Origin: a virus
Direction: 5' to 3' (one strand)
DNA length: 25,610 nt
IMG/VR virus record: IMGVR_UViG_3300022413_000036
Span: 1-25,610 of that record
The notes beneath the pieces were generated by a model, which saw only the letters and a program-made list of their open reading frames with translations, ran no database searches and was not told the DNA's origin. A program made the position numbers and the translations under genes. Positions 279-13,840 of the stretch are shown here, piece by piece (the stretch's first letter is position 1; each line of letters starts with the position of its first letter).

Positions 279-697
279 TAGGGGTCGGAAATCCTCACCT
301 GAAACCCGCCCAAGCTCAAGTCGTCGGGGGTCACGGTCACCACCGCGCAGCGCGAAATCAGGAAGGTTTGCGAGAGAGGTAGAAGCGCGGTCTTTTTGCC
401 GTCAAGGTCGCCCCAAAAGATCTCTGCCGCGCTTGGGTCGCTCGCCCTGTCGGGATCATCCAAGGGGAGCCCACTTAGAGCCTGCTTGAAGTCGATCCGG
501 GCTTGTAGGCGCTCCTCCAGTTCCGCCGCCTTCTTCGCAACGGAGCCATTGGCGAGGTTGGCGAAGACTTCACAGCCCGGCCCGCCGCCAAGATCAATGC
601 AAAACTCATCCGGGGTTTGCATGGTCTGACTGACACAAAGCGCCCACGCGGGGATGGGCAAAAGGCAAAGAACAAAGGCCGCCAAGAGCTTTTTCAT
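278..697 (-). CDS. Exported protein of unknown function with Sec signal peptide
   Basis: The 139-aa product begins MKKLLAAFVLCLLPIPAWA, a textbook Sec signal peptide with a basic start, a hydrophobic core and a likely signal peptidase I site after AWA. Three cysteines follow at about residues 21, 32 and 42 of the precursor and could form disulfides in the periplasm. No lipobox precedes a cysteine, so a lipoprotein is unlikely. There are two adjacent ATGs: GGAGG at 707-703 lies 2 nt from the first (700) and 5 nt from the second (697), so I chose 697. The TGA stop of the adaptor gene overlaps this ribosome binding site. The C-terminal half is paralogous to the next gene downstream. The role is unknown. 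A periplasmic lysis accessory (spanin-like) role is possible from the signal peptide, but nothing else supports it. Confidence 0.8.
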   Translation of the reverse strand: MKKLLAAFVLCLLPIPAWALCVSQTMQTPDEFCIDLGGGPGCEVFANLANGSVAKKAAELEERLQARIDFKQALSGLPLDDPDRASDPSAAEIFWGDLDGKKTALLPLSQTFLISRCAVVTVTPDDLSLGGFQVRISDP

Positions 698-707
698 CAT
701 TTCCTCC

Positions 708-1337
708 TCACAAATATTGACCCATCACACGACCGGACATGGCCCGGCTCGTCTCTATGCCGCGCAGGACCCGCTCGGCCTCCAGCTCCTGCACCTTCAT
801 CCGGTCCCCCTTGTCACTCTGGTGGATGATGTTGTTGTAAAGATCCCACTTGGCCCTCGCCCGGATCATCCGTTCACCCCGCGTGGTCCAGAAATTGCTG
901 TCGGTGTCCGCCGTGATCACGGGCAAGGTTTTGCGGTAGTACAGGCACAGGCCGTAGGCTGCCTGGGGCTGCGGGTAGAGCCGGATTTGGCCATCGCCAT
1001 AGGTCCAGTCGAAGGGGATCCCCTTGCCCACCACGGCGTTCAAATCGATCACCTGGAGGTAATCCCAGGATCGACGGTTCAGAGGGTAGGTGGACTGATT
1101 GACCGTGATCTGGAGCGGATACTCCCCGATAAAGTCAAGGAAGTCGTCCGGCACCGGATAGTAGGTCTGGCCATCGATGGTCGCGCTTTCCGCGCGCTCG
1201 GTGGTGACATGGAAGGGGGGCTCGGTGTCCTCATAGTGCTCGATGGCCGAGAGGATTGCCGAGCGGACTGCGGCGTTGATATTTGTCCGGTGGATCTCAG
1301 CCTCGACACGAGAGACCATGGTGGCGAAATCTGTCAT
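708..1337 (-). CDS. Phage head-tail adaptor / tail accessory-like protein
   Basis: 209 aa. The start MTDFATMVSRVEAEIHRTN, followed by a helical N-terminus, a central beta-rich part (DGQTYYPVPDDFLDFIGEYP, TYPLNRRSWDYLQ, DGQIRLYPQP) and a C-terminal helix rich in charged residues, is the pattern of podoviral adaptor proteins such as those of SU10/phiEco32-like phages and, more distantly, P22 gp4. These bind below the portal and connect it to the tail. The ribosome binding site GGAGG lies 10 nt before the ATG. The family assignment is from motif memory, and the gene's location in the structural module downstream of portal and capsid supports it. Length is normal for the family. Alternative: another small tail or connector protein. 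Confidence 0.65.
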   Translation of the reverse strand: MTDFATMVSRVEAEIHRTNINAAVRSAILSAIEHYEDTEPPFHVTTERAESATIDGQTYYPVPDDFLDFIGEYPLQITVNQSTYPLNRRSWDYLQVIDLNAVVGKGIPFDWTYGDGQIRLYPQPQAAYGLCLYYRKTLPVITADTDSNFWTTRGERMIRARAKWDLYNNIIHQSDKGDRMKVQELEAERVLRGIETSRAMSGRVMGQYL

Positions 1338-1394: not shown

Positions 1395-1670
1395 TTACCC
1401 GTTGCATTTGCTTTCGTGAAGCCCCCGACCGCGACCGATGTGGCGGTAGCACTTGGTGCAGAACCCGTTTTTGCTCAGCTCCTCGACATAATCGGGCCAG
1501 AACTGATCGATGATGGCCTCCAGGGTCGTTTTCCGGCTCTCCCAGGTGAGGGAGGCCCGTCGCCGCTCCGGTCGTGGCCCCAGATCGCTATAGCCCTTGA
1601 GAGCGGCTCTCAGGATCTCTGGCGGGGCGAAGTCGATCGGCAGGTCACTGGGGTGCGGCAGAGCCATCAT
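1395..1670 (-). CDS. Small zinc-finger-like protein, unknown function
   Basis: 91 aa. The C-terminal end carries Cys71-x2-Cys74, His85 and Cys89, a plausible zinc-binding set in a basic segment (IGRGRGLHESKC). The middle is predicted helical and basic (RPERRRASLTWESRKTTL). GAGGTG lies upstream of two adjacent ATGs at 1670 and 1667. The gene overlaps the glycosyltransferase gene by 26 nt, so it is part of the same transcript. It sits between the glycosyltransferase and the adaptor gene. I do not recognise the family. A nucleic-acid- or protein-binding accessory role fits the composition but is inference. Confidence 0.65.
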   Translation of the reverse strand: MMALPHPSDLPIDFAPPEILRAALKGYSDLGPRPERRRASLTWESRKTTLEAIIDQFWPDYVEELSKNGFCTKCYRHIGRGRGLHESKCNG

Positions 1671-2424
1671 CGCGCACCTCCGGTCGCAGCTTGCCCATGG
1701 CGATCATGTGCTGCTTGACCCGGTCGTTATGGACCGAGCGCCCCATGACCTGCTCGTAGGGTGCCAGGATCACCGCCTCCTGCATCTCCTTCACCCAGGT
1801 CTCATGATGTTCGCAGCCGGCGAGCTGCTCCCATACCGGGGCCCCTGCGGTGAAATGGATCAGCTTGGCATCGGGCCTGGGCTCGTCGTAGAGCACCAGA
1901 TGGTTCCACTCGGGTGGCAGTTCGCCGATGAGGTCGCTGTCCCTGTTGCCCTCCAGCCAAGTGAAGCCGGCAAGGGTTTTGTGGTTCGCGCGGACATGGT
2001 CCGGGGTCAGCACCTTGTTCGCCGGGTGCCCGGCATTGAACACCATCAGCGACGGCCACTCGAACTTGGCCTTGTGCTTGACCACCCAGACCGCCCGCTC
2101 AGTGTTGTCAAAATCAACCGCCGTCTCGTTGTCCTCCATGCAGTGGGCCACCAGCTCGACAATGTTGCCGGTCATCACCATGTCCGCGTCCATGAACACC
2201 GCCAGCCCATCGAAGCCGGCGAGCCATGGGGTCAAGTAACGGGTGTAGGTGAAGGGGGTCAGCCCAACCATGTCGCGAGGCACCGGGAGCTGGTCGATCA
2301 CCAGGGGCGTGATCGAGACCGGCAAGGTCGAGTGCCGCAGGATGGAGTGCGCCAAGCAGGTGAAACTCACGGATTGGCGCGGGTCATATCCGATGTAGGC
2401 CCGGATGGGGATTTTAGCTGTCAT
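1645..2424 (-). CDS. Glycosyltransferase, DXD type (GT8-like)
   Basis: 259 aa. The N-terminus (IRAYIGYDPRQSVSFTCLAH) and the DXD motif FMDADMVMTGNI (D79, D81) match retaining-type, GT-A fold glycosyltransferases of the GT8 and related groups. The DXD aspartates bind the metal and the nucleotide-sugar phosphates. Further down, FNAGH (about residue 150) and LIHFTAG (about 208-214) resemble the later conserved GT8 elements that complete the active site. The sugar and acceptor cannot be read from the sequence. A strong ribosome binding site (AAGGAG) precedes the ATG, and the gene overlaps the methyltransferase stop by 11 nt. It belongs to the run TPR-glycosyltransferase, methyltransferase, glycosyltransferase that sits between capsid and adaptor genes, so it probably acts on a virion protein or a host surface glycan. 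Confidence 0.8.
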   Translation of the reverse strand: MTAKIPIRAYIGYDPRQSVSFTCLAHSILRHSTLPVSITPLVIDQLPVPRDMVGLTPFTYTRYLTPWLAGFDGLAVFMDADMVMTGNIVELVAHCMEDNETAVDFDNTERAVWVVKHKAKFEWPSLMVFNAGHPANKVLTPDHVRANHKTLAGFTWLEGNRDSDLIGELPPEWNHLVLYDEPRPDAKLIHFTAGAPVWEQLAGCEHHETWVKEMQEAVILAPYEQVMGRSVHNDRVKQHMIAMGKLRPEVRDDGSAAPQ

Positions 2425-2989
2425 TGGCCTCGGCTCCTTCGTCTCTCGCCCCCAAGAACAGGAGCGTGTTGGGGATGTAGTTGAGGTTCATGATGGTGAA
2501 CCAGTCGCCCAGGGTGTTGAGCCACCAGCGCGGCCCCTCCTGGATCAGGTGGGCATTGCGCCCATCGGGCAGCACCTTCACCGCCGGGCCAGTGTGGATG
2601 GCCAGAAAGACACCCACGCGGGCGAGGCGCTCGATGTCCTTGATGACGAACTGCAGCTTGTCGGGCTCGACGTGCTCCAGGACATCGGTGCAGACGACGA
2701 GGTCGGCGATGTCCGGTCGCCCGTCCTTGCCGGGGACAGCCGGGTCATACTCGCGGACGTCGGTGTAGGGAGAGAGGATCGCCAGTCGGCGCTTGAGAGA
2801 ACCCTTGCCGCAGCCGTAATCCAGCACCGTCTGGATGTTGGCGTTCTGGATGACGACGGTGATGTCCTCGGCGTGGCGTTCACCACGGGCGCCGTAATCA
2901 CTCCGCCGCTCGTGGAACTCGGTCTGCATCGCCCGATAGTCCGGGGATATGCAGTCGTCCTGGCTGATGGGGGCTGTTTTTTCTGTCAC
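2414..2989 (-). CDS. Class I SAM-dependent methyltransferase
   Basis: 191 aa from a GTG start. The glycine-rich SAM-binding loop is VLDYGCGKGSL (D57 to G63) and the motif after strand 4 is LVVCTDVLEHVEP (D102 to H106). Both are hallmarks of the Rossmann-fold methyltransferases that often modify sugars or small molecules. I chose the GTG at 2989 because GGAGCCGACC directly precedes it, the same leader seen at several other starts here. The frame stays open to 3097, but that stretch lies inside the upstream gene and has no comparable ribosome binding site. The gene still overlaps the TPR-glycosyltransferase by 92 nt, which is unusually long. With a glycosyltransferase on either side, a sugar methyltransferase is the likeliest role. 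The substrate is unknown. Confidence 0.8.
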   Translation of the reverse strand: MTEKTAPISQDDCISPDYRAMQTEFHERRSDYGARGERHAEDITVVIQNANIQTVLDYGCGKGSLKRRLAILSPYTDVREYDPAVPGKDGRPDIADLVVCTDVLEHVEPDKLQFVIKDIERLARVGVFLAIHTGPAVKVLPDGRNAHLIQEGPRWWLNTLGDWFTIMNLNYIPNTLLFLGARDEGAEANDS

Positions 2990-4436
2990 GGTCGGCTCCG
3001 TTGCTGATTGTTTCGGTAAGCGCCTTGTGGATCCGCTCGAAAACCGGCTCCCAGGCACAATCGGGATCCTGACGGAAAAGGCGGACGTTGTCACCATACC
3101 AAAGCATGTGGTCCGCCATGGGGTTCCCGTCGACCTCCTTCATGTAGCGCCAGCTGCAGCGATGGGGCAGCGGGATCCAGCACGCCTGACCGATCGATCC
3201 ACACTGGTGAACCATGGTTTGATCGACGGTGATGACCAGATCCATCTGCGCGGCAAGCGATGTCAGGGCGTCGAAGTTGTCGACCACCTCCTGCCAGTGA
3301 TGGACGCCCTTGATGCCGGCATCGGCCAGCTGCTCGGCGGCATCTCCCCGATAGTGGACCGAGAAGAACTCGACCTCGGGGAAGGCCTCGACCAGGGCCT
3401 TGAAGTGGTCCATGTCAGGGGTCCTGTAGTGGCTGTGGGTCGAAACGATCCCGCCCTCCCAGGCAATGCCGACGCGGAACTTGCCCTCGGCAGCGTGTGC
3501 CACACGGCGCGCCAGGGCGGTGTCGGTGGCCGGGTTGGTCTTCAGGTAGGGCTTGAACCCACCATCGCGGTGGCGCGGGAAGTCTTCCCATCGGGTGCGA
3601 AAGAGGAGCTGCAGATCGCCGATGGAGATCTTGGCATCGATCTTGCCGTGGTCGTAGATCCACTTGCTCTCCTTGAACTTCCTGGTGCCGTAGCAGGCCT
3701 CCAGATCGAACGACCGCGAAAAGAGGCCCTGCAGTCGCGGGTGACAGTCGAGGATCAAATTGTCGCAATGGCTGCGGGCTTCGTTGATAGCCTCGGCGAA
3801 GAGCAGCTCATCGCCTTGGCCTTGCTCGCCGTAGACCACCAGCCGGTGGACGTGGCTGCCATCCCAGGGCGGCGCATCGAACTGCTTGTTGGGGCGCACG
3901 CCCGACCTGAACCCTACCTTATGCTCGGTCCAGCCCTCCAGCAGCCGCCCCTGCTCCAGGAGACAGAGGCAAAGGTTCCAGCCGCCTTGCGGATGGTCGG
4001 GCTTGGCCTTAAGGCACTTTCGCGCCCAGGCCTCACCCTCCTCCGGGCGCGCGGCGTTGATGCAGGCACTGGCAAGGTTGTTGTAGACATCCGCGTCGAT
4101 GCGGCCATGGGCCTCCATCAGCTCCGCCGCCTTCAGCCATATCTCCTCTGCCCTTTCGTCCATGCCGATGCCACGGAAGCAGTTGCCCATGTTGTTCAGC
4201 GGCTCGTGGGCCTCGGGCTGCAGGTCGGCGGCCTGTGCCAGGATGGGCAGGGCCGCGCCGAAGTGGCGCTCACCGAACAGCAGGGTGCCGTACAGGAAGG
4301 ACGCCTGGGCATTTCCGGGGTCCTGGTTCAAGGCCTCGCCCCACCTGCTGTGGGCCAAGGTGCGATCATCGGCTTGCCACGCGGCTTGGCCATCGGCCAA
4401 CAGGCGGTTGATACGCTTCTTTTTGCGGGGGTTCAT
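2898..4436 (-). CDS. TPR-repeat glycosyltransferase (GT9/SPINDLY-like)
   Basis: 512 aa. The N-terminal third (about residues 10-180) is made of tetratricopeptide-like helical repeats: QAAWQADDRTLAHSRWGEAL, then PGNAQASFLYGTLLF, EAHEPLNNMGNCFRGIGM, and VYNNLASACINAARPEEGEA. The C-terminal part has the GT-B features seen in TPR-glycosyltransferases: VVYGEQGQGDELLFA (about 200), RVGIAWEGG (about 320), and DLVITVDQTMVHQCGSIGQ with a following SWRY (about 415-450). The TPRs probably hold a protein acceptor. ATG 4436 is preceded by GAGGAGCC; an upstream in-frame ATG at 4460 lacks this. The C-terminal 30 residues overlap the methyltransferase in another frame and look unlike the family, so a read-through or frameshift is possible. 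It lies just after the capsid and minor structural genes. Confidence 0.8.
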   Translation of the reverse strand: MNPRKKKRINRLLADGQAAWQADDRTLAHSRWGEALNQDPGNAQASFLYGTLLFGERHFGAALPILAQAADLQPEAHEPLNNMGNCFRGIGMDERAEEIWLKAAELMEAHGRIDADVYNNLASACINAARPEEGEAWARKCLKAKPDHPQGGWNLCLCLLEQGRLLEGWTEHKVGFRSGVRPNKQFDAPPWDGSHVHRLVVYGEQGQGDELLFAEAINEARSHCDNLILDCHPRLQGLFSRSFDLEACYGTRKFKESKWIYDHGKIDAKISIGDLQLLFRTRWEDFPRHRDGGFKPYLKTNPATDTALARRVAHAAEGKFRVGIAWEGGIVSTHSHYRTPDMDHFKALVEAFPEVEFFSVHYRGDAAEQLADAGIKGVHHWQEVVDNFDALTSLAAQMDLVITVDQTMVHQCGSIGQACWIPLPHRCSWRYMKEVDGNPMADHMLWYGDNVRLFRQDPDCAWEPVFERIHKALTETISNGADRDRKNSPHQPGRLHIPGLSGDADRVPRAAE

Positions 4437-4467
4437 AGCGGCTCCTCTATGCGGCTCCAAGGAGAGC

Positions 4468-4501
4468 GGGGCGGTGGCGCCTTAAACAGTACCACCGCCC
4501 C
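4468..4501 (-). other. GC-rich stem-loop after the 143-aa structural gene, no U tract
   Basis: A perfect 10-bp inverted repeat: GGGGCGGTGG at 4468-4477 pairs with CCACCGCCCC at 4492-4501, with a 14-nt loop. It lies 34 nt past the stop of the 4535-4966 gene and before the TPR-glycosyltransferase. There is no T run on the minus strand after it, so it is more likely a partial terminator or a 3' mRNA-stabilising structure than a classic intrinsic terminator. Confidence 0.55.
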
Positions 4502-4534
4502 TAGCCCAGATGGGGAGCCGACACCGATCTGGGA

Positions 4535-4966
4535 TTAGGCGTCTCGCGTCAGGTACATCGTCCGCGAGAGAACACCCGTGCCGGAGCCTGACGTCACCGC
4601 CGGGATCACCGACTTCACCATTGCGCTGAGGTTGGAAGACCCCAGGGCATCGTCGGACAGCGACACCGTGAAGGGCAGCGCTGCGTTGTCGTAGAGGCCA
4701 ATCGCCGCCGACGTGCTCGACCCGGTGAGGGTCGTGGCGCCGACGATGAAGGTCTCGGTGGTGTTGATGCCGGTTGCCCCGCCACCGCGTTGGATACCCA
4801 ACAAGGTCGACCCGTTGGGCACCTTGCCCCACAGGATGACGTCGCCGGCAGACAGGGACACGACTTCCGTCCCGAAGGTGATGGTGGAGCGGACAGCGTC
4901 GACCCCGTTGTGGTTGCCCTTGGGCTGGACGCCCGAGATGGCCTGGGTTGCAGTAATGGTAGCCAT
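4535..4966 (-). CDS. Small virion-like protein (possible capsid decoration protein)
   Basis: 143 aa, rich in Thr, Ser, Gly and Ala with many alternating hydrophobic residues, typical of a beta-rich virion protein. It opens MATITATQAISGVQPKGNHN and has a central GDVILWGKVPNGSTLLGIQ and TSAAIGLYDNAALPFTVSL. It has no signal peptide and few charges. It follows the major capsid gene directly, with only a GC-rich stem-loop between them. Small Ser/Thr/Gly-rich genes in this place often encode capsid decoration or head-fibre proteins. That role is inferred from place and composition, not from a recognised family. The many surface Ser/Thr residues would also suit glycosylation by the enzymes encoded next door. 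AGGAAAG lies before the ATG. Confidence 0.75.
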   Translation of the reverse strand: MATITATQAISGVQPKGNHNGVDAVRSTITFGTEVVSLSAGDVILWGKVPNGSTLLGIQRGGGATGINTTETFIVGATTLTGSSTSAAIGLYDNAALPFTVSLSDDALGSSNLSAMVKSVIPAVTSGSGTGVLSRTMYLTRDA

Positions 4967-4993
4967 GGTTCTTTCCTTTTCTCCTCCCTCGCC

Positions 4994-5019
4994 CTCCCCC
5001 GCCAGGATCGGCAGGGGAG
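4994..5019 (-). other. GC-rich stem-loop just after the major capsid gene
   Basis: On the minus strand, CTCCCCTGCC (5019-5010) pairs with GGCGGGGGAG (5003-4994) around a 6-nt loop: ten pairs including one G-U. It lies 17 nt after the capsid stop. It is not followed by a T run but by the purine-rich leader of the next gene. It could slow 3' exonucleases, so that capsid mRNA is kept, or cause partial termination that lowers the next gene. Confidence 0.55.
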
Positions 5020-5035
5020 CGGTCAGGAGACTAGG

Positions 5036-6109
5036 TTACAGGGTTGACGGGTCAGGCGCGTAGGTCGCCATCACCAGGGTCGAGAAGTCCTCGCTGTTGA
5101 ACACGGTCTTTTTCAGACCGCAGATCATGCCCGAACTCACGCCCAGCTGATTGCCGTAGTCGAAGGTGTCCTCGACCCAGGACATCTTGCCCGGCCCCGA
5201 GTTTCGACCGAAGGCCAGGGCTGCGGCTTGAGCGCCGCAGAACACCGGACGGCGATAGTCGGCGATGGCACCCGCTGCCGGCGTATCCGTGATGTTGGGG
5301 ATACGGGTGGCTTCGTGCAGGATCACACCGTTCCACATGCCGATGGCACCGGAGAAGATCGGGTTCTTGGTGATCTGTCCCCCTTCCATGGCAGCCCGCT
5401 GGATGTCCGCCCAGGAGCCGGCAGTCGATGCCTGCTGGCGCAGCTGGTAGACGTCGAAGGGGTGCAGGAACGCGACGTAGTAGTTGCCGCCATCGATGCG
5501 GATAGGCCGGATCATCGGGGCCAAGGTCTTGGCCTGGGCCACCGCCTTGTCGATCAGAGCCATCGACATGATGTTGGCCGCGACCAGGGATCCCTCTGTG
5601 GATTGCCCGTCGTGCCAAACGCGGTGGTCGGCGTCAGGGGCGATGGTCGCTTGGTTGCCGGTGTAGAGGGTCCGGGTCTCTGCCGTATTGCCGGCGATCT
5701 GGTTGAAGAACCAAGTATCCATGCGATCAGAGAACCAGTCCTGGAGACCCATGCGGCTCTCCTCGCGAACTGAGAACGGCACCCGCTGCTCGGACATCTT
5801 GCCTTCCGACCGAACCGCGTGGCGGATCTGGTCGATGAAGATGTCGTCGTTGTAGGTGACGAGGCTCTCTTCGTTCCCCTCAAGGGTGGCATCGCCTTGA
5901 ACGCCTTCGCCCTCAAGCAGGACACGCAGGCCGCAGCGGATACGGTCGCCCGCGTCCTTGCTGAGGTCGTTCTTGATCTGCACGACAGAGTTGCTGTCGG
6001 TGCCGAGGAAGCGGTAGATCCAGGTCGTTTTCAGCGCTTCGTGGAAGAGCTTTTTCGACCATAGCTTGACCGCTAAGGGATGGTTAATCCCATAATTTGT
6101 ATTGGCCAT
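5036..6109 (-). CDS. Major capsid protein, N4 gp56 family
   Basis: 357 aa. The sequence opens MANTNYGINHPLAVKLWSKK and continues with VQGDATLEGNEESLVTYND, the block IDQIRHAVRSEGKMSEQRVP and FSVREESRMGLQDWFSDRMD. This is the characteristic signature of the N4 gp56-family (HK97-fold) major capsid proteins of podoviruses. The C-terminal part (YYVAFLHPFDVYQLRQ, FGRNSGPGKMSWVEDTFDYG) is also typical, and the length fits. About 420 copies would build an N4-like head. The gene directly follows the scaffold gene but is separated from it by an intrinsic terminator and a fresh promoter, so it has its own transcription unit suited to high expression. Its ribosome binding site is GAGG, 10 nt before the ATG. 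Confidence 0.95.
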   Translation of the reverse strand: MANTNYGINHPLAVKLWSKKLFHEALKTTWIYRFLGTDSNSVVQIKNDLSKDAGDRIRCGLRVLLEGEGVQGDATLEGNEESLVTYNDDIFIDQIRHAVRSEGKMSEQRVPFSVREESRMGLQDWFSDRMDTWFFNQIAGNTAETRTLYTGNQATIAPDADHRVWHDGQSTEGSLVAANIMSMALIDKAVAQAKTLAPMIRPIRIDGGNYYVAFLHPFDVYQLRQQASTAGSWADIQRAAMEGGQITKNPIFSGAIGMWNGVILHEATRIPNITDTPAAGAIADYRRPVFCGAQAAALAFGRNSGPGKMSWVEDTFDYGNQLGVSSGMICGLKKTVFNSEDFSTLVMATYAPDPSTL

Positions 6110-6184
6110 CGGTTTCGTCCTCGCGGATTAGTGGTGATCATGATGTCTGTGATCCCCATTTAACGCCTACGGGACGGGCGACAG

Positions 6185-6195
6185 CCGATTATCGG
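6185..6195. promoter_or_regulatory. Short palindrome in the capsid 5' leader
   Basis: CCGAT-T-ATCGG, an 11-bp perfect palindrome in the roughly 115-nt stretch between the putative capsid transcription start and the ATG. It could be a protein-binding site or a weak RNA hairpin. It is too short to be convincing alone and is noted because two more palindromes lie close by. Confidence 0.3.
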
Positions 6196-6209
6196 ATCGA
6201 CTAGACCGA

Positions 6210-6224
6210 CAGCTCTAAGAGCTG
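6210..6224. promoter_or_regulatory. Operator-like 15-bp palindrome at the capsid transcription start
   Basis: CAGCTCT-A-AGAGCTG is a perfect palindrome with a single central base. It lies immediately downstream of the candidate -10 box (6235-6230), so it would cover about +1 to +14. That is the classic place for a repressor operator. No repressor that would use it is identified. Confidence 0.45.
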
Positions 6225-6229
6225 CAGGG

Positions 6230-6259
6230 AGGATAGGACAGTGCGCGCTCAGAAGTCAA
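6230..6259 (-). promoter_or_regulatory. Candidate sigma70-type promoter for the capsid gene
   Basis: On the minus strand, TTGACT (6259-6254) and TATCCT (6235-6230) are separated by 18 nt. The -35 box matches the consensus at five of six bases and the -10 at four of six. It lies between an intrinsic terminator and the capsid ATG, where a new promoter is expected. The predicted leader is about 115 nt long. Confidence 0.55.
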
Positions 6260-6262
6260 CCT

Positions 6263-6290
6263 CACTACTGCAAACGCATTTGCAGCAGTG
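6263..6290. promoter_or_regulatory. 28-bp inverted repeat upstream of the capsid promoter
   Basis: CTGCAAA at 6268-6274 and TTTGCAG at 6279-6285 are perfect mirror complements around CGCA. Beyond one mismatch the symmetry continues with CACT/AGTG, giving 11 of 12 paired bases per arm. It abuts the candidate -35 box on its upstream side, the usual place for an activator site. As RNA it would be downstream of the scaffold terminator, so a DNA-binding role is more likely. Confidence 0.5.
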
Positions 6291-6313
6291 GGGCGGGCAT
6301 AATTGTGATGAGG

Positions 6314-6340
6314 CAAAAAGCCCCCGACCGAAGCCGGGGG
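6314..6340 (-). terminator. Intrinsic terminator after the scaffold gene
   Basis: On the minus strand CCCCCGGC-TTCG-GTCGGGGG forms an eight-pair stem (one G-T pair) with a stable TTCG tetraloop, followed at once by a run of five T after one C. It lies about 40 nt past the scaffold stop. This is the clearest Rho-independent terminator in the window and ends the long leftward transcript before the capsid promoter. Confidence 0.9.
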
Positions 6341-6380
6341 ACAGTTGGGCTTTGAAAGTGCTAGGCGATGCACCAGACGG

Positions 6381-7343
6381 TTATGGCATGTCGAAGCGGT
6401 TCATGGAAGCCCCAACGATGCGATCCCAGTTCTTGGGATCGAGCATTTCCTTGTCCGACAGGTTAGCGAGATCCTCCAGGGTCATGGGTTGGCCTGCCGC
6501 CTGACCACCGCCGTCAGACAGCGACTTGTTGGCCTGCTGCCCCTGCTGGACCGCCTTGAGCTGCTGCGCGGCCTGCTGGGTCGCCGTGGTCGCGGCTGGG
6601 GCCGCGCCGCCCTGGAACCCAACCAGCTTGGCCTGCTCGTAGACCATCTTGGCCGGGTCCTGCCCGTTGTTCATCGCCTGCACCGCCGCGTAGAACAGCC
6701 GCTGCTCGGCATCGGCCGCAGCCGCTGTTGGGTCCATGCCAGCCAGGACATTGGACTGCGTGGTCAGCTTGCGGACGTGGTCGAGCGCCTGGGGGTAATC
6801 TGGGTGGGTTTCCATGTAGGCCTGCTGGCGGGCAACCAGGGCCATCTGGGCGTGGCTCTGAGCCTGCTGGACCTGTCCCTGCTGCGACATCTCCGCCACC
6901 TGCCGATCAAGCATCTCTTGGCGCACCCGTAGGTGCTCAGCAGGGTCGTCATCGTAGGACGGGATCTCGGGCTGCTGTGGCTGCTGCGGTTGCTGGGCCT
7001 GCCCCTGCCCCTGCGCCATCGCGACAACAGCCTCGTAGGCCTTCTCCATCCGCGCCTTGGATGCCCGCTCCTCTTCGAGCTGGGCCTTGAGGTCGGCGGT
7101 CTGGCCACGCGCCTCATCGAGGGCCTGGATGGGGACCGAGCGCGGCGGGCGCTCGTCCTGAGAGGGGGGTTGGGCAGGATCCTCCGGCAAGGATGTAGGA
7201 TCCTGCCCAGTGTCAGCAGGATCCGATCCCGTTGGCTCCGCTGCAGGTACGGGTGCGGGATCGGCCTGCTGATCTGGTGGCGTGTCCGGCTCGACCGAAA
7301 CAGTGTCCAGGAAAGCGTCGGCTGAAGGGTTGGACTGCGGCAT
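6381..7343 (-). CDS. Scaffolding-like protein
   Basis: 320 aa, very rich in Gln, Ala, Pro and acidic residues. The first 70 residues are Pro/Asp-rich and probably disordered. About residues 75-110 form a charged coiled coil (LDEARGQTADLKAQLEEERA). A Gln/Pro-rich linker (about 112-127) leads to a long helical region, and the C-terminus (LEDLANLSDKEMLDPKNWDR) is acidic-helical and then basic at the end. This composition, and a position immediately before the major capsid gene, is typical of phage scaffolding proteins that guide capsid assembly through a helical C-terminus and are then released. AAGGAG precedes the ATG. The call is from composition and gene order, not from a sequence motif. Confidence 0.75.
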   Translation of the reverse strand: MPQSNPSADAFLDTVSVEPDTPPDQQADPAPVPAAEPTGSDPADTGQDPTSLPEDPAQPPSQDERPPRSVPIQALDEARGQTADLKAQLEEERASKARMEKAYEAVVAMAQGQGQAQQPQQPQQPEIPSYDDDPAEHLRVRQEMLDRQVAEMSQQGQVQQAQSHAQMALVARQQAYMETHPDYPQALDHVRKLTTQSNVLAGMDPTAAAADAEQRLFYAAVQAMNNGQDPAKMVYEQAKLVGFQGGAAPAATTATQQAAQQLKAVQQGQQANKSLSDGGGQAAGQPMTLEDLANLSDKEMLDPKNWDRIVGASMNRFDMP

Positions 7344-7535
7344 TTACGTTGGCTCCTTTGGGGTGTTGGGCGTGCGGGAGTGCCCGTGGACCAGGAAGGT
7401 CTCGGCAGCGCCACCGGATCCCTGCTGCGCAGAGATGATCTGGGCGTCGAGGTCCTTGAGGATGGCTGCATTGGGACCATGGCGCCTCACGGCACGGGCA
7501 CGCAGGTCTTGCAGGCGGTCTAGCGTGGTGGGCAT
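7344..7535 (-). CDS. Small protein upstream of the scaffold gene, unknown
   Basis: 63 aa, helical in the first half (TLDRLQDLRARAVRRHGPNA, then ILKDLDAQIISAQQ) and Gly/Pro-rich at the end. The ribosome binding site AAGGAG sits 8 nt before the ATG, and the TAA stop is directly followed by the scaffold ATG, so the two are coupled. I do not recognise it. Its place suggests an assembly or virion accessory protein. Confidence 0.7.
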   Translation of the reverse strand: MPTTLDRLQDLRARAVRRHGPNAAILKDLDAQIISAQQGSGGAAETFLVHGHSRTPNTPKEPT

Positions 7536-7547
7536 GATCCTGGCTCC

Positions 7548-9908
7548 TTATTGCCGCAAGGCGGCGGCTCTTTCAACACTCTCCTGGACGGTCTGCACCG
7601 GCCACTCTCTACTGTTCGACTGCAAGATCCCTTCGTACTCGCCTCGGCCCATGACGTAAGTGTCATACATTGGGTTCAGTGTCGTCGACACCTCGGGCAG
7701 CTGCTTGATCTCTTCCAGGGCGTCAAGGATAACATCTTCCTGCTCGGCAAGATAGTCCCCCACGCCGGCAGGGTTGGCGATCATGTCATCGTTGAACTCG
7801 GGCACGATCTGGAACCGCAGGCCGGTGAACTGCTCGGCCTTGGCGCCGCTGGTGCCGCGACCGACCCTGGTGTCCGTGATCATGGTGTAGCCGTGGATAT
7901 TGTGCTTGGCCAGGATGTCGGTGATCGCCTTCATGCCCTCGCGGTCCATCTTCTGGCGCAGGTAGATCTCGCCACCGGGTCGAGCGTTCGCCGGCAGCTC
8001 GGTCCCAGGCCTGATCACCCTGGAGATGAAGGAGGCATCCTGGTTCGAGGCCTGGGCTTGGCGGGCGATCTCTCCGATCAGGTTGCCAGGGTCATAGCCT
8101 GGGTTCACGACCACCTCGCCATCGAAGGAGTTCTCGACATAGTCCATGAACTCGCCCTGTGAGGTCTGCACGTTGCTGGCCACGACGTTGGGGTCATTGT
8201 CCCAAATCTGCTTGATGTCAGCCGCGCCCCGCGCCATGACATCATCCGGCAAGGGAGCATCGCGCTGCTGGGTGTGGCCAAGCAGCATGCGCTCGACCTC
8301 TTGAACCCGGCCAGGATCAGCCCTGGTCTGCTCGCCGGTCAGGGTGCCGCGACGGGCCATTTCGAACATGTCTCCGCCTTCCTTGAAGCCCCAGCGGTTT
8401 TCGACCCAGTGGCGCTTCTCGCCGAACCACGCAACCGCCTGCAGGTCGTCCGGGGCCATGCCCAGCTCGTCGGCGGCCTTCTTGAACACCTCCTGGCCAA
8501 AACCATAATCTCCCTTGGCCACGCCATCTTTGTTGAACTTGCCACTGACCGCGCCCTCAGCCCTCGGGGGGATGCGCTTCTTGTTGCCCATGCGGTCGAG
8601 CCACCGGGCCGCCCACACATCGACAGTGGCACCTTCGTCATAACCGATCAGGTTGCCGGCGAAGGTCTCGGCCTTGGGAGAGCCAGAGCGCTGGCGCCAC
8701 ATGTCAACCAAGGCCTTCATGATATTGCCGCTGTTCGCGCCGTAGAGCGTGCCGTTGGGCTTGCGGATCATCGGCAGCAGCTCGTCCTGCTCGGCCTCCG
8801 TCATCTCGCCGGCCTTGACCTTCTTCCTCAGCTCGTTCCATGCCCCGGTATAGTTCGATGGGGTCCAGTTGTTCGTCTCCATGATCTGCTGGTATTTGGT
8901 CAGGACATCATCGAACTCGCCCCTGGTGAACTGCCCCAGAGCGGTGATGGCGTTGCGCCAATTGTCCTCGACGTTGGTTTGTGGGCTGCTGGCACCGATC
9001 ATGTCAGCAAACACGTCCCCCATGCCGCCGTAGTCCTCTCTCAGCCGGGTTCGCATGCTGGAGTACCAAGTGGACTGCTCAAGGATAGCCTGCGCCGCAG
9101 GATCGCCGCGCTCGGCAGCTGTGCGGATTGCCCGCACCTGCTCTGCGGTCCTCTTGGCCAAGCGGTTGACTATGGTCTCCCTCTTCTTGCCGGTTGCGAC
9201 CTTGCCGGTGGCTGGGTCTTGGGCGAAGCGATATTTCTGCTGTTTCCACAGGGCGACGGGCTTACCTCCCTCCCACTTGAAGCCGTTGCTCTCCAGCGGG
9301 GACCAGCCATCGAGCACGGGATGCTCCTGCTTGGCCGCTCGGACCTGTCCCTGGAGCTTTTCCTGCATCGACTTGTTGCCGGGGATGGTAAGCCGGAACT
9401 TCTCGTCCGTGCTCAGAGAAGCACGGGAAGCGACTTTCCGCTGGCCGCTCTTGAGACCCCCGGCCACAAGCTGATCATGTCTCTTGGCGCCCTTGGTGGC
9501 CGCGTCGGCGATGCCCTGGGTGGCCTCTTTCATGCCGGTATAGGAAGGCCCTGGTATGGCCATCGCCAGACCACCGCCAAGCAGCTGGGTTCCGGCCTCG
9601 ACCGGCCCCATGTCGCCAGTAGCAAAGCCCAGGAGCCCCTGCCCCATGTCCCGCAGGTCCGCCGCCGGGTTCATCTCGCCGAGTGCCAGGGCGGTGTTGG
9701 TGACGCCCCGGCCCAGGTTGGGTCCAAGAAACTGCTCCACGACGTTTCTGGCCGGCTGGTTGTACTCCTGGGTCTTCTGATTGGCGCGGGCGAAGTCGTT
9801 CGCCTGGACGTCGGCCCAGTAGCGCGCCAGGGCGTCCTGGCCCTGCTGCAGGAGGTTTGAAAAGCTAGGTGCTGGCTGCTGCCTCTGGGGGAAGTACTGC
9901 TCTGGCAT
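7548..9908 (-). CDS. Large putative virion protein with HhH-GPD-like central region
   Basis: 786 aa, the longest gene here. The first 40 residues are Gln-rich, and about residues 70-125 are Gly/Ala-rich and moderately hydrophobic (LLGGGLAMAIPGPSYTGM). The middle has WYSSMRTRLREDYGG (281-295), ADMIGASSPQTNVEDNW (301-317), AETFAGNLIGYDEGATVDVW (413-432) and then DLQAVAWFGEKRHW. This order (small helical WY segment, a SPQT/V..N segment, TVD-x-x-A, QA-x-W) resembles a phage domain distantly like helix-hairpin-helix DNA glycosylases. I recall it from uncharacterised phage proteins and cannot confirm it. The C-terminal 250 residues are not recognised. It lies between portal and scaffold, so it is probably a packaged or ejected protein. 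It overlaps the oxygenase by 44 nt, and its ribosome binding site is weak. Confidence 0.75.
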   Translation of the reverse strand: MPEQYFPQRQQPAPSFSNLLQQGQDALARYWADVQANDFARANQKTQEYNQPARNVVEQFLGPNLGRGVTNTALALGEMNPAADLRDMGQGLLGFATGDMGPVEAGTQLLGGGLAMAIPGPSYTGMKEATQGIADAATKGAKRHDQLVAGGLKSGQRKVASRASLSTDEKFRLTIPGNKSMQEKLQGQVRAAKQEHPVLDGWSPLESNGFKWEGGKPVALWKQQKYRFAQDPATGKVATGKKRETIVNRLAKRTAEQVRAIRTAAERGDPAAQAILEQSTWYSSMRTRLREDYGGMGDVFADMIGASSPQTNVEDNWRNAITALGQFTRGEFDDVLTKYQQIMETNNWTPSNYTGAWNELRKKVKAGEMTEAEQDELLPMIRKPNGTLYGANSGNIMKALVDMWRQRSGSPKAETFAGNLIGYDEGATVDVWAARWLDRMGNKKRIPPRAEGAVSGKFNKDGVAKGDYGFGQEVFKKAADELGMAPDDLQAVAWFGEKRHWVENRWGFKEGGDMFEMARRGTLTGEQTRADPGRVQEVERMLLGHTQQRDAPLPDDVMARGAADIKQIWDNDPNVVASNVQTSQGEFMDYVENSFDGEVVVNPGYDPGNLIGEIARQAQASNQDASFISRVIRPGTELPANARPGGEIYLRQKMDREGMKAITDILAKHNIHGYTMITDTRVGRGTSGAKAEQFTGLRFQIVPEFNDDMIANPAGVGDYLAEQEDVILDALEEIKQLPEVSTTLNPMYDTYVMGRGEYEGILQSNSREWPVQTVQESVERAAALRQ

Positions 9909-10602
9909 CTTTTGGTCGCTTTCTCAGGTTCCACAAGAAAACACGGCGATTGGCTCCCTCCGGCACCGGCTCCACACCGTGGAACGAGTTGTCCGTCTTC
10001 AGGAAACATACCATGGTGTTTGGCTCATATGGAACCCTGTAGACCTCCTGGAAGTCCCAAGCCGGGTCGTCGCGGTTATGGTGAGGCCCGCCAACGCAGG
10101 TGCGCCCGGTCGGTGTCCAGTAGATCGAGGTGCCGAGGGTGTCGTTCCTGGGTTTCCTGTTTTCCCACGGGTCCTGGAAGTAGGCCAGCATCGAGAGGAT
10201 CTTCGCCGGACTGTCGGTGTGCGGGCCGATGGCATAGCCGGGGCCGTCCTCGATCAGCAGGGTGTCACTGTGGACATGCGGCATGGCGCTCGCCGGGATC
10301 GTGAACTTGTCCATCATCGCCTCAGCGAAATATGCCGACATCACAGCCTGGGTCAAAGCGTCCCAATGGTCGCCCAGGTCGACCTGATCACGCGAGCAGC
10401 GTCTGTTTTTGTAGCTGGTGAGGTTCCGCACCTCGGCGATCGGCGCCATCTTCTCCTCGGGCCACGTCGAGGCCAGATCTAGCCACAAATCCAATGGCAA
10501 CCAGTCCTCGACCACGATGTGGGGATAGGGCCACTTGCGCAGCTCGCTGTTCATCACCTTGTAGACCAGCCCGCTGACCAATTGGTTGACAAGATAGCTC
10601 AT
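9865..10602 (-). CDS. 2-oxoglutarate/Fe(II)-dependent oxygenase
   Basis: 245 aa. The metal-binding triad is visible: H128-x-D130 in GYAIGPHTDSPAKILSMLAY and the distal H208 in TDNSFHGVEPV. R219/R220, eleven to twelve residues later, would bind 2-oxoglutarate. This is the layout of the prolyl-hydroxylase-like 2OG-Fe(II) dioxygenases, which hydroxylate proteins, nucleic acids or small molecules. The N-terminus (MNSELRKWPYPHIVVEDWLP) resembles versions found near glycosyltransferases and FkbM methyltransferases. ATG 10602 overlaps the methyltransferase stop as ATGA and has GGAGG upstream, so I rejected the longer in-frame ATG at 10749. The substrate is unknown. It is coupled to the FkbM gene and likely acts on the same molecule. 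Confidence 0.85.
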   Translation of the reverse strand: MSYLVNQLVSGLVYKVMNSELRKWPYPHIVVEDWLPLDLWLDLASTWPEEKMAPIAEVRNLTSYKNRRCSRDQVDLGDHWDALTQAVMSAYFAEAMMDKFTIPASAMPHVHSDTLLIEDGPGYAIGPHTDSPAKILSMLAYFQDPWENRKPRNDTLGTSIYWTPTGRTCVGGPHHNRDDPAWDFQEVYRVPYEPNTMVCFLKTDNSFHGVEPVPEGANRRVFLWNLRKRPKDARAVLPPEAAAST

Positions 10603-11342
10603 GGCTGGACCTCCAGGGTGAAGACTGTCTCGCCGACGTTGGTGAAAGGCCCCGAGGTGCGCTTGGCCGCGTCCGCCTGCTCCTGGCTCCAGGTGTAGCC
10701 CTGCGCTTCCAGCAGGTCGACCATCATCAGGTGATCGCCCCGGTTCCAATTGACCTCGATGATCCAGGTTCGCGGCCTCTGGTCCAGGTGCCAGGGATAA
10801 CCCTGCACCACGTCGTGCTCGTGTCCATCGACATCCACCTTGATCGCGGTTGGGGAGCCCTTCACCGTCATGACGCTGGCCAGCGACACGCCGAAAGAGC
10901 CCTGGCGATAGGCCGGCTTGAAGAACTTCTCGCCGCCGAAGTGCCTGCTATCGCCCTGCTGGTGGCAGGACCCGCCGATGTCAAACTTCGTCAGGTTCAG
11001 GAAGCCCATGTCGACGCCGTCATGGTCCCCGATTGCGCAGCAGAAGGCCTGCACCGAGGGCACCGGATTGTTCAGGTGGATGTTGGCGTTCAGCGCCGCA
11101 TAGTTCTGGCTCTCGGGCTCGAAGGCGACCACCGGGCAGTGCCGGATCATGCTGGCGTAGAGCGTGTAGACACCGATGTTGGCGCCGACGTCGTAGAGCA
11201 GGTCCTTGGGACCCAGCGCGTTGAGCCACTCGATGGTGATGGGCTCTTTCGTCAGCAGCGTCTTGGCCCGCCACATGCACATGTCGTTATGGTGGATGAT
11301 TTTCATCGACCGCCCGTCGACGGTGATCTCACTGGCTTGCAT
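10599..11342 (-). CDS. FkbM-family SAM-dependent methyltransferase
   Basis: 247 aa. The SAM site is LLYDVGANIGVYTLYAS (D51 to G57), followed by VVAFEPESQNYAALNANI (E75) and later AIKVDVDGHEHDVVQG. These three blocks define the FkbM (Methyltransf_21) family. Its members are O-methyltransferases of sugars and antibiotics and are common beside glycosyltransferases. The leader GGAGCCGACC precedes the ATG directly. The stop overlaps the oxygenase start. The gene lies downstream of the portal and a small basic protein. A sugar or polyketide-like hydroxyl is the usual acceptor of the family. The acceptor here is unknown. Confidence 0.88.
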   Translation of the reverse strand: MQASEITVDGRSMKIIHHNDMCMWRAKTLLTKEPITIEWLNALGPKDLLYDVGANIGVYTLYASMIRHCPVVAFEPESQNYAALNANIHLNNPVPSVQAFCCAIGDHDGVDMGFLNLTKFDIGGSCHQQGDSRHFGGEKFFKPAYRQGSFGVSLASVMTVKGSPTAIKVDVDGHEHDVVQGYPWHLDQRPRTWIIEVNWNRGDHLMMVDLLEAQGYTWSQEQADAAKRTSGPFTNVGETVFTLEVQP

Positions 11343-11379: not shown

Positions 11380-11676
11380 TTATTGGACGTGGGGGATCCT
11401 CACGACGACCACCCCGGTCTCGACGTTGTAGGTGTGGCTGCCATAGCCCTGGCCGAGCTGCTCACGCAGGATCTTGACCACCTTGCCGGCAGGCAGGCCC
11501 TTGCCAATGTTGAAGTAGTGCTCGCCCTGGCCCAGGCGCCCCTCGGGGGGCAGCGGGGGGATGTAATCGCTTTCGATGGGGTTGCGCTCAAGGAACTTCT
11601 CGACCCAATTGGGGTCTTTCTCGGCGGTCTTTTGGGCGGCCTTCTTCGCGGTCTTTCTAGCGGTCTTGCGTGCCAT
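11380..11676 (-). CDS. Small basic protein with Lys/Ala-rich N-terminus, unknown
   Basis: 98 aa. The first 20 residues (MARKTARKTAKKAAQKTAEK) are histone-H1-like, with lysine and alanine repeats that would bind DNA or RNA. The remainder (EHYFNIGKGLPAGKVVKILR, then a valine-rich end) looks like a compact small domain. GAGGAG with an 8-nt spacer precedes the ATG, which lies inside the end of the portal gene (20-nt overlap). I do not recognise the family. A DNA-binding packaged protein is possible from composition and from being next to the portal. Confidence 0.7.
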   Translation of the reverse strand: MARKTARKTAKKAAQKTAEKDPNWVEKFLERNPIESDYIPPLPPEGRLGQGEHYFNIGKGLPAGKVVKILREQLGQGYGSHTYNVETGVVVVRIPHVQ

Positions 11677-13840
11677 CTGGTCGGCTCCTCAGTGCTTGTT
11701 GGCGGGCTTCCTCGGTGTCCATCTTTTCCTCTAGCAGATCTCGACCCGCCAGTCCATCTGCCACCATCTGGTTTTGCCTCACGCGCTCGGTCTCGGCCCG
11801 CTCCTGATCGAGCCGCGCGGCAGCGGCGAACTTCTCGGCCTGGGCAGCGTCGACCGGGGTCAGCTCGGCGATCCGCGCCATCTGCGCCTGGGCTTGGGCC
11901 TGGACCGCCTGCGCCTTGGCAGCCTCGGTCTGCACCGCAGCGGCCTCCTTCTGGGCCTTCGCTTGGTTCAGCTGCACGACGCTGGCGTCTTTCTGCGCCG
12001 CCGCCTGGGCCTTCATCTCCTCGGGGCTGGGCTTCTCCTGGCCGGGCTCCTTGGGCTGCATCATCTCCTTCCACTTGGAGACCAGCCCGGTCGGCAGCGG
12101 CGCGTAGTCGAGCACGTCCGGCGGGATCGGGATGCCCGCCTGCAGCAGCGCCGGCAGGAGCTGCGTCAGCACGCTGAAAACCTTGTCCTTCTGGTTGGGG
12201 CTGCTCGGCGCCTCGTCCACGATCACGTCGTAGGTGATGGCCTCCTCGTTGCGCACCAGCTCGACATACTGCTCGGTGCCGTCGCCGGCCACGATGCGGA
12301 CCAGCCGGCCATCGCTCATGTAGAGCTGGATGAACTCCAGCATGATGCGGCCCTGGTTCTTGCGGTAGCGCCGCAGCGCATCGAACATCGGCGCCAGGAT
12401 GGTCACCGCGCTCTCTTTCCGCTGGTACTCCAGGATGCCGGATCTGTTCTGGGCATCGGCCTGCCCGAGCAGCTCCATATTGACGCCTGTGACCTCCTGG
12501 AAGGCCCCCAGTGACATCTGCATCAGCCGATCGGTGCCCTGCGGATAGGGCGCCCCAGGCTTGGGCATGACCTTGGGACTGCCGCCGCTCAGAGCGCCAT
12601 CCTGCATCAGCGCGATGTTGTCGCTCGCCGCCCAGGTCGTCTCCGCCTTGTTGGGATCCAGGAACGCGGACTTCTCCGCCATGATCCCGCCCTTCGCGTT
12701 GGTGTTCAGGACGTGCAGGATCTGGCTGAAGAACTTGTTCGCCCAGCGGGCCGGGTCCTTGAGGTTCCGCACCACGCCGTACCATGTGCGCTTGTTGCGG
12801 TCGCGCTTGCCGGTCATGCACTGATAGGTGAACCCGGTCTGGACCGCGTTGTCGATCACCTCGATGATCTGATTGTCGGTCAGGAAGGCCTTGTAGTAGT
12901 GGCGGCGCTTCTGCTTCACCGATGGCAGGCCAGCAGCCTCCAGGACATCGCGCAGCTTGGCCATGGCCTGGGCGCTGACCTCCTCAATCTCGCCGGTCTC
13001 AGGGTTGACCGTGCGGTAGTAGGTCTCCAGCTCATACCATTGGTACTCGATGACGCGGTAGACCTTCTTCTCGGCATCAAACTGCTGGTCCTGCTCGCCG
13101 CCGACATAGCCGATCTCGTCGTTGAAGTGGCCCTCGCCCTCGTCATCCGCCCAGCCCTCGTCGCCGCCACCGCCTCGGGGGCTCACCTTGCCGGCCATCT
13201 CCGGCCACGTCTCCAGGAACTCGATCTGGTCGTAGTCCTTGATGCGGGCGATGTGACGGGCGTCGACAAGGTTGCGCTTCTTGGCAGCCGTGTCCCAGTA
13301 CATCTCCATCGGGTCGACGCGGTCGATGCAGATCTTGCCGTCCGGGTCCTCGTCGTAGACGATCCGCGTCTCGGTCCAGCCCATGCCGCAGATCAGGTTG
13401 TCCAGGAAGGCATCGCTCTCCTCGTCCTCGGCATCGCAGTTGTCCCTGGCCCAGTCGACGGCGCCGGTCAGCACCTCGTTGATGCCGACGTCACCCACCT
13501 GCCGAGGCACAAACCGGGTCTCCTGCCGGTTATTGACCTCCAGGCCAGCGATGGCATCGATCATGGGCTGCACGCGGTTGTAGGTGATAACGGGCCGAAG
13601 AGCCTCTTTCAGCTGCGCGATGTCGTCGTCCGACCACTGATCGCCAGCGTAGAAGGCAAAGTCCTCCTTGGCGTCCCTACGCCACTGGCCGGTGTGGTTG
13701 CGCATGCGCGACAGGTCGGACTTGATCTTGTTAACCAGCTCTTCCTTGGGCAGCTTGTGCGGGGTGATGGTCTCAGCTGCTGGCCGCTGGTTGCCCGAGG
13801 CGCTGGGAGCGGGGTAGGGATCGTTCATCGGCATGGACAT
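11657..13840 (-). CDS. Portal protein, P22 gp1-like
   Basis: 727 aa, the usual size of P22-type portals. Family features include EDFAFYAGDQWSDDDIAQLK near residue 60, ITYNRVQPMIDAIAGLEVNN (about 85-105), FLDNLICGMGWTETRIVYDE (about 145-165) and IDRVDPMEMYWDTAAKKRN. The last 130 residues are Ala/Gln/Lys-rich helices (AQAAAQKDASVVQLNQAKAQ), as in the C-terminal barrel of these portals. Twelve copies form the DNA entry ring at one head vertex and bind the terminase and the tail adaptor. GGAG lies 3 nt before the ATG at 13840, and in-frame ATGs follow at codons 3 and 5. It directly follows the large terminase. Confidence 0.9.
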   Translation of the reverse strand: MSMPMNDPYPAPSASGNQRPAAETITPHKLPKEELVNKIKSDLSRMRNHTGQWRRDAKEDFAFYAGDQWSDDDIAQLKEALRPVITYNRVQPMIDAIAGLEVNNRQETRFVPRQVGDVGINEVLTGAVDWARDNCDAEDEESDAFLDNLICGMGWTETRIVYDEDPDGKICIDRVDPMEMYWDTAAKKRNLVDARHIARIKDYDQIEFLETWPEMAGKVSPRGGGGDEGWADDEGEGHFNDEIGYVGGEQDQQFDAEKKVYRVIEYQWYELETYYRTVNPETGEIEEVSAQAMAKLRDVLEAAGLPSVKQKRRHYYKAFLTDNQIIEVIDNAVQTGFTYQCMTGKRDRNKRTWYGVVRNLKDPARWANKFFSQILHVLNTNAKGGIMAEKSAFLDPNKAETTWAASDNIALMQDGALSGGSPKVMPKPGAPYPQGTDRLMQMSLGAFQEVTGVNMELLGQADAQNRSGILEYQRKESAVTILAPMFDALRRYRKNQGRIMLEFIQLYMSDGRLVRIVAGDGTEQYVELVRNEEAITYDVIVDEAPSSPNQKDKVFSVLTQLLPALLQAGIPIPPDVLDYAPLPTGLVSKWKEMMQPKEPGQEKPSPEEMKAQAAAQKDASVVQLNQAKAQKEAAAVQTEAAKAQAVQAQAQAQMARIAELTPVDAAQAEKFAAAARLDQERAETERVRQNQMVADGLAGRDLLEEKMDTEEARQQALRSRPDGTQDR

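Follow-up and report, generated by a model that had tools for sequence, protein, structure and literature searches.

A putative virion protein-glycosylation gene set behind the capsid genes of uncultured phages, with counterparts in bacterial chromosomes

In Caulobacter, flagellin is modified by the O-glycosyltransferase FlmG, which combines an N-terminal tetratricopeptide repeat (TPR) domain with a C-terminal GT-B glycosyltransferase (GT) domain and binds its flagellin substrates through the TPR domain (PMC7591256). Virion proteins can also be targets, as mycobacteriophage glycosyltransferases reportedly modify proteins of the capsid and the tail tube (Freeman 2023, as cited in PMC12619734). 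A potential surface for such modification is offered by capsid cement proteins, which in phage GP4 form trimers exposed on the outside of the capsid (PMC9698820). The titles and abstracts retrieved from the literature contained no description of a module such as the one presented here, in which a TPR-containing glycosyltransferase (TPR-GT) and four further enzymes are encoded among phage head genes.

The window, the whole stretch of viral DNA that was analyzed, comprises 25,610 nucleotides of IMG/VR record IMGVR_UViG_3300022413_000036. A preliminary description had placed five sugar- and small-molecule-modifying enzymes within its virion module on one strand. This arrangement was confirmed, as the five open reading frames are present at the coordinates given there, all on the minus strand, and lie between the terminase and portal genes on one side and the adaptor gene on the other, with a PF13252-type capsid gene among them (Table 1). 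The catalytic motifs of the enzymes are conserved.

Table 1. Features of the enzyme and virion genes, with positions as in the window
Feature	Coordinates	Strand	Basis
SU10-type adaptor, far border of the capsid-side cassette	708..1337	-	PF24175, 1.2e-14
DXD glycosyltransferase (DXD-GT), GT8/WbbM-like GT-A	1645..2424	-	phrog_28018, motifs, weak profiles
Class I methyltransferase (MT)	2414..3043	-	Methyltransf_23, conserved motifs
TPR-GT, N-terminal TPR superhelix and GT-B (GT9-like) domain	2898..4436	-	Pfam, AlphaFold, structure comparison
Capsid cement (decoration) protein, 143 aa, candidate acceptor	4535..4966	-	profiles, fold
Major capsid protein, N4 gp56-type	5036..6109	-	PF13252, 2.6e-77
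Scaffold-like protein	6381..7343	-	position, homologues in about 20 relatives
2OG-Fe(II) oxygenase, optional add-on	9865..10602	-	PF13640, invariant metal-site residues, fusions
FkbM O-methyltransferase	10599..11342	-	PF05050, conserved motifs
Portal protein	11657..13840	-	phrog_156, 1e-118
Terminase large subunit	13904..15433	-	phrog_2, 3e-31

The TPR-GT is a protein of 512 amino acids, for which an AlphaFold model was obtained with a pLDDT of 92. Its N terminus matches TPR_8/TPR_19 in Pfam and is predicted to form a superhelix over residues 1 to 180, and its C-terminal half is predicted to adopt a GT-B fold that is closest to the GT9 structure 3tov (Z of 19.1, rmsd of 3.2 over 263). The predicted fold also resembles those of WaaF (1psw; Z of 17.8) and of the protein heptosyltransferase TibC (Z of 16.6), as well as OGT/SPY with the TPR part included (Z of 18). 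A GEQGxGD loop is invariant among the homologues. The protein is best explained as an FlmG-like enzyme, likened to FlmG by domain architecture rather than by direct sequence comparison, and cytoplasmic protein O-glycosylation, as carried out by FlmG, is predicted for it. Unlike FlmG, it is fixed with a capsid gene and not with flagellin, its GT half is closest to GT9, and it is accompanied by the MT, the DXD-GT, and sometimes FkbM and the oxygenase.

The remaining enzymes are identified by profile matches and conserved motifs. The DXD-GT has no match in Pfam and weak profile matches to WbbM (6e-4) and to a GT8 enzyme (0.008), and its DxD and HxTxGxP motifs are invariant across 14 homologues. 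The MT matches Methyltransf_23 at 1.2e-5, slightly under the cut-off, and 12 homologues retain its LDYGCGKG and DVLEHIEP motifs; where translation of the MT starts is uncertain, and the gene overlaps the stop of the TPR-GT. FkbM matches PF05050 at 1.1e-12 (48.9 bits against a curated cut-off of 22.7), has conserved DVGANIG and IKVDVDG motifs, and overlaps the start of the oxygenase by 4 bases. The oxygenase matches PF13640 at 9.7e-5, which is under the cut-off of that family, and presents the HxD...H metal site (here HTD) and the distal R, with H128, D130, H208, and R219 invariant in four homologues.

The order of capsid, cement, TPR-GT, MT/GT, and adaptor genes recurs in dozens of other contigs from uncultured podophages, which rules out a chance clustering of the enzyme genes. 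Among the matches listed, a major capsid gene precedes the TPR-GT by at most 1.6 kb in 69 of 75 dereplicated loci with at least 1.5 kb of readable upstream DNA. This fraction characterizes the TPR-GT family and cannot serve as independent evidence, since the seeds of the phage survey were drawn from capsid-linked loci. The capsid genes at these 69 loci belong to two families, with 55 of the PF13252 type, near which the preliminary description had suggested looking for the set, and 14 of the SU10_MCP type. In IMG/VR, the TPR-GT profile matches at least 600 stretches. Named phages yielded three matches in 50,697 records, only one of them with the capsid-linked set, and no close DNA relatives of the window were found among them. 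The mycobacteriophage system as reported resembles the present cassette in that the glycosyltransferases are phage encoded and differs in that here a TPR-GT occurs together with methyl and oxygenase tailoring; at the sensitivity used, named mycobacteriophage records contained no similarity to the TPR-GT, DXD-GT, oxygenase, or FkbM.

The coupling of the oxygenase to FkbM proposed earlier is real, but the two genes form a separate, optional pair beside the portal gene, mostly directly before it, and do not belong to the capsid-side trio. All seven FkbM-oxygenase-portal records that reach the site contain the TPR-GT. In two loci (L029/L030), relatives of the MT, FkbM, and the oxygenase are fused in one polypeptide that is followed by a GT, and fusion-type linkage of these three was also found in L119, L121, and L134.

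The five-gene set also occurs in chromosomes of metagenome-assembled genomes of Betaproteobacteria, in clusters that include a major type IV pilin gene where the contigs reach that far. These oxygenase-FkbM/TPRGT-MT-GT/pilin clusters, for which no experimental characterization was found in the literature, have the five enzyme families in common with the phage set, whereas their oxygenase and FkbM are divergent, the TPR-GT is present in several copies, and the partner gene is type IV pilin. A gene with a type IV pilin motif accompanies 14 of 79 bacterial TPR-GT loci and a flagellin gene 7 of the 79; the oxygenase and pilin share a contig in 4 of 10 genomes checked. Homologues that lie apart from structural genes and act on host glycans, which had been named, together with unmodified virion proteins, as evidence against virion decoration, were not seen at the loci examined, and the chromosomal ones are often found at genes for structural proteins. 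A prophage-like copy in Reyranella (L249) is damaged in part, and bacterial genes interrupt it.

The set probably serves the phage as a module for glycosylating virion proteins in the host cytoplasm. The TPR half would hold a freshly synthesized protein of the capsid surface, with cement as the likeliest candidate and the major capsid or another virion protein as alternatives, and the GT9-like GT-B half would move the first host-made nucleotide sugar onto Ser/Thr. The DXD-GT may extend the glycan and the MT cap it, and in the subset of phages that includes this one, FkbM and the 2OG oxygenase could contribute further O-methylation and hydroxylation of the glycan or the acceptor. Of the two outcomes initially considered, virion decoration or remodeling of host glycans, the former is better supported because of the position behind capsid and cement genes in two capsid families, the FlmG-like architecture, and the homologues at pilin and flagellin genes; modification of the host surface keeps a small share of the probability.

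Profile and predicted fold assign the 143-amino-acid protein to the Ig-like capsid cement proteins of the GP4/Pam1 type. Its profile matches are to 7eel_H (6e-7), 8h89_J (2e-6), and 7dn2 (3e-4), which places it with the cement proteins of GP4, Pam1, and KHP30/KHP40, and its predicted fold aligns with GP4 cement (Z of 14.0, rmsd of 2.4 over 131) and with Pam1 cement (Z of 10.8, rmsd of 2.4 over 112). None of these cement proteins is known to be glycosylated. The earlier proposal of this protein as the acceptor stands in part. It is a putative surface cement, and its serine content is 10.2% in cassette phages versus 5.5% in those without the cassette, with capsid S+T unchanged, in a comparison that includes only nine cassette-free proteins and is confounded with cement subfamily. 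However, cassette-free relatives also carry a cement-like protein at that site, and three loci (L019, L021, and L026) have the cassette and lack the cement gene there, so that cement as an obligatory partner is ruled out. Co-divergence of the TPR half with cement is unsupported (partial correlation of 0.03, p of 0.34, given the GT half). The GT half correlates with cement divergence (0.26 to 0.34), and since adaptor divergence likewise correlates with the TPR-GT, co-divergence does not identify the acceptor.

Pilin glycosylation affects phage adsorption, and in bacterial chromosomes the nearest relatives of the set cluster with pilin genes, so an infected or lysogenic host might instead have its type IV pilin or flagellin modified by the cassette, which could, for instance, exclude competitor phages that use the pilus. 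This is unlikely, as the enzyme genes follow the capsid and cement genes within the head-gene block, with either of two capsid families, and late expression, which is to be expected there, would come too late to protect the host; furthermore, none of the 248 phage-set loci contains a gene with a pilin or flagellin motif. Similarly improbable is a remodeling of host lipopolysaccharide, O-antigen, or capsule, although FkbM and GT-A/GT9 enzymes commonly work on cell-surface glycans, FkbM has a further match to the RfbT family of O-antigen methyltransferases, and the GT-B fold resembles lipopolysaccharide heptosyltransferases. O-antigen serotype conversion (Gtr) cassettes encode a membrane flippase and an integral-membrane transferase. 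None of the five enzymes here has a transmembrane segment (no 19-residue stretch exceeds a mean Kyte-Doolittle value of 1.4), and thus neither a flippase nor a Gtr-type integral transferase is among them; in addition, protein acceptors agree better with the TPR module and with the linkage to structural genes in phages, pili, and flagella. Glycosyltransferases, methyltransferases, and 2OG oxygenases serve small-molecule and nucleotide pathways in phages too, but action on such a substrate (including phage DNA hypermodification), with the head-gene location due to hitch-hiking, is very unlikely given the TPR-GT architecture, the chromosomal linkage to pilin and flagellin, and a position behind the capsid genes that has long been kept even though the TPR-GTs of these phages have diverged to a mean identity of about 35%.

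Virion glycosylation thus remains the preferred function, and there appears to be one gene kit common to viruses and bacteria for decorating surface proteins. More tentatively, the TPR-GT, MT, DXD-GT, FkbM, and 2OG oxygenase could constitute a transferable kit shared among type IV pili, flagella, phage capsids, and tail fibers, in which the TPR module is retargeted and a hydroxyl made by the oxygenase is methylated by FkbM, yielding a glycan that carries both modifications and is new to virions; this possibility is speculative. The set points to a virion-surface glycosylation that is widespread among environmental phages yet hardly visible in named ones. It makes capsid cement proteins a named, testable class of acceptors and ties phage capsid decoration to uncharacterized bacterial clusters that include a type IV pilin gene. 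If true, this would bear on the stability and adhesion of phages and on the recognition of their particles by antibodies and hosts.

Five enzyme genes had been placed on one strand of the window in the preliminary description, and an ORF check found all five at those positions, on the minus strand. The record spans 25,610 bases in IMG/VR, and a DNA search found no close relative of it among named phages. Pfam scans matched FkbM to PF05050, the oxygenase to the 2OG-Fe(II) family with a score below the curated cut-off, and the methyltransferase (MT) to class I methyltransferases, also below cut-off. Homologues keep the metal- and 2OG-binding residues of the oxygenase and the methyltransferase motifs with little or no variation. 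The glycosyltransferase (GT) has no Pfam match, its DxD is invariant across the family, and the family profile gives weak matches to WbbM (6e-4) and to a GT8 enzyme (0.008). Pfam and PHROG scans confirmed the TPR protein (TPR-GT), the PF13252 capsid, the SU10-type adaptor, the portal and the terminase; E-values of the genome and locus scans are relative to the candidates or to one genome. The genes are closely spaced or overlap by a few bases, like a translationally coupled operon. Two further products are a 786-amino-acid protein with a DUF7178/phrog_3842 stretch at residues 400 to 495, between oxygenase and scaffold, and a 140-amino-acid protein of the virion block with a signal-peptide-like N terminus, directly after the adaptor.

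Coordinates of the features discussed
Feature	Sequence	Position	Strand
140-aa protein	window	278-700	-
GT (DXD)	window	1645-2424	-
MT (class I)	window	2414-3043	-
TPR-GT	window	2898-4436	-
143-aa protein	window	4535-4966	
Capsid	window	5036-6109	
786-aa protein	window	7548-9908	-
2OG-Fe(II) oxygenase	window	9865-10602	-
FkbM	window	10599-11342	-
Four-domain protein	phage locus L029	7892-10606	
Four-domain protein	phage locus L030	7847-10549	
T2SSE secretion ATPase	bacterial locus L265	3281-5671	
Prophage-like region (with locus L249)	Reyranella sp. CPCC 100927, G039:C34	380917-381183	

The predicted model of TPR-GT is very confident (pLDDT of 92), with a TPR half at residues 1 to 180 and a GT-B half that best matches the GT9 structure 3tov (Z of 19.1), followed by WaaF 1psw (17.8), WaaC and the protein heptosyltransferase TibC (16.6). 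OGT and SPINDLY match both halves together, with high RMSD. This two-part plan of TPR and GT is shared with FlmG of Caulobacter, whose TPR part binds flagellins and which is required and sufficient for flagellin glycosylation (PMC7591256).

The capsid-gene search returned 26 loci, some of which (e.g., L003, L004, L014, L019, L021, L025, and L026) have capsid and adaptor separated by TPR-GT, MT and GT, whereas in others the capsid and a small protein are followed directly by the adaptor; the trio is thus present or absent at a single site. A single phage-collection record, MW202512 (uncultured podovirus, Manatee Spring), has the complete set; its GT, MT and TPR-GT genes come after those of capsid and cement, and its terminase and portal genes are separated by oxygenase and FkbM. 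A similar head block that lacks the cassette is found in three isolated phages, KLEP18-1, RHph_Y1_10 and Mae-JY35. IMG/VR profile scans retrieved at least 600 stretches each for TPR-GT and GT, and 55 loci for the oxygenase; the order capsid, cement, TPR-GT, MT, GT, adaptor recurs repeatedly. Clustering at 80% identity gave 105 TPR-GT clusters among the matches listed, 75 with enough upstream DNA. Within 1.6 kb upstream lies a PF13252 capsid in 55 of these 75 and an SU10_MCP capsid, from another Pfam and PHROG family, in 14, counts that describe the family and are no independent test, as the survey seeds came from capsid-linked loci. SU10_MCP-type loci have a different small protein in the cement position (phrog_3982 in two of three tested).

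FkbM lies within 1.5 kb of the oxygenase in 34 of 53 oxygenase loci, and the portal follows directly in 26. TPR-GT occurs in 7 of 14 records with FkbM-oxygenase-portal, including L127, L143 and L149, each longer than 44 kb; the other seven come from short pieces of 8 to 21 kb, judged to end before the TPR-GT site. In the reverse search, only 1 of 25 TPR-GT or GT records had the oxygenase. The pair is therefore an add-on accompanying the trio. In L029 and L030, an MptE-like domain, MT, FkbM and oxygenase are, in this order, domains of a single protein, and a GT gene comes next; the tail protein ahead of it has Ser- and Asn-rich repeats and is of the Mtd_N type in L030. A role of this protein and its GT in tail-fibre glycosylation is possible.

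Scanning bacterial genomes for TPR-GT yielded 79 loci. Two of them, L248 and L249, resemble prophages and carry both a capsid gene and the cassette; the Reyranella region (L249) also has cement and a further TPR-GT copy that is broken, and bacterial genes separate its scaffold from its capsid. In Betaproteobacteria and relatives, a divergent oxygenase and FkbM adjoin TPR-GT, MT, GT and extra TPR-GTs in L250, L263, L265 and L278, and L258 and L282 have a partial version of this set. Pairwise identities between L265 and the window are 29 to 38% for the four enzymes compared. The five-gene cluster of L265 is preceded by a T2SSE secretion ATPase that contains GAF and MshEN domains. Tandem TPR-GT arrays, some ending at a pilin gene, occur in L250, L251, L259, L268 and L321, perhaps with each enzyme serving one site or one sugar. 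Of the 79 loci, 14 contain a type IV pilin motif gene, in most cases no more than 600 bases from a TPR-GT, and 7 a flagellin gene; Pfam confirmed both in the bacterial loci tested. Ten genomes with such loci, the bacterial counterparts coming mostly from MAGs, were checked for the oxygenase, which shares a contig with the pilin in four; in the rest the two are on different contigs, which says nothing for or against linkage. A host pilin is a rival candidate for the phage acceptor; among the 248 phage-set loci, none has a pilin or flagellin motif gene.

The 143-amino-acid protein beside the capsid had been put forward as candidate acceptor. A profile from 51 relatives matches capsid cement proteins of known structure from Pam1, GP4 and KHP30, and the protein's predicted structure (pLDDT of 81) aligns with GP4 cement (Z of 14.0 over 131 residues) and Pam1 cement (Z of 10.8). 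On the outside of the GP4 head, the cement forms Ig-like trimers (PMC9698820). Cassette-free phages have a small protein that profile comparison makes a probable distant relative (hhalign probability of 84%, E of 8e-6); its profile also matches a phage structural protein of known structure. In cassette loci L019, L021 and L026, no cement gene directly follows the capsid, and TPR-GT begins 53 bases past it. Cement serine is 10.2% in cassette phages versus 5.5% in cassette-free ones (p of 9e-6), only a hint because the nine cassette-free proteins come from few lineages and the subfamily differs; capsid Ser plus Thr is equal in both. A co-divergence test aimed at the acceptor singled out no protein.

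Across these settings (two capsid families, the tail-fibre region, pilin and flagellin), the enzymes adjoin a gene for a structural protein that is abundant and displayed at the surface. Modification of a host surface glycan, which the preliminary description gave as the alternative to virion decoration, is a rival reading. Because of the structural-gene neighborhoods and the TPR-GT architecture, a cytoplasmic protein-glycosylation pathway is the best explanation. In phages, its acceptor would be a virion surface protein, with cement as the leading candidate among other possible ones.
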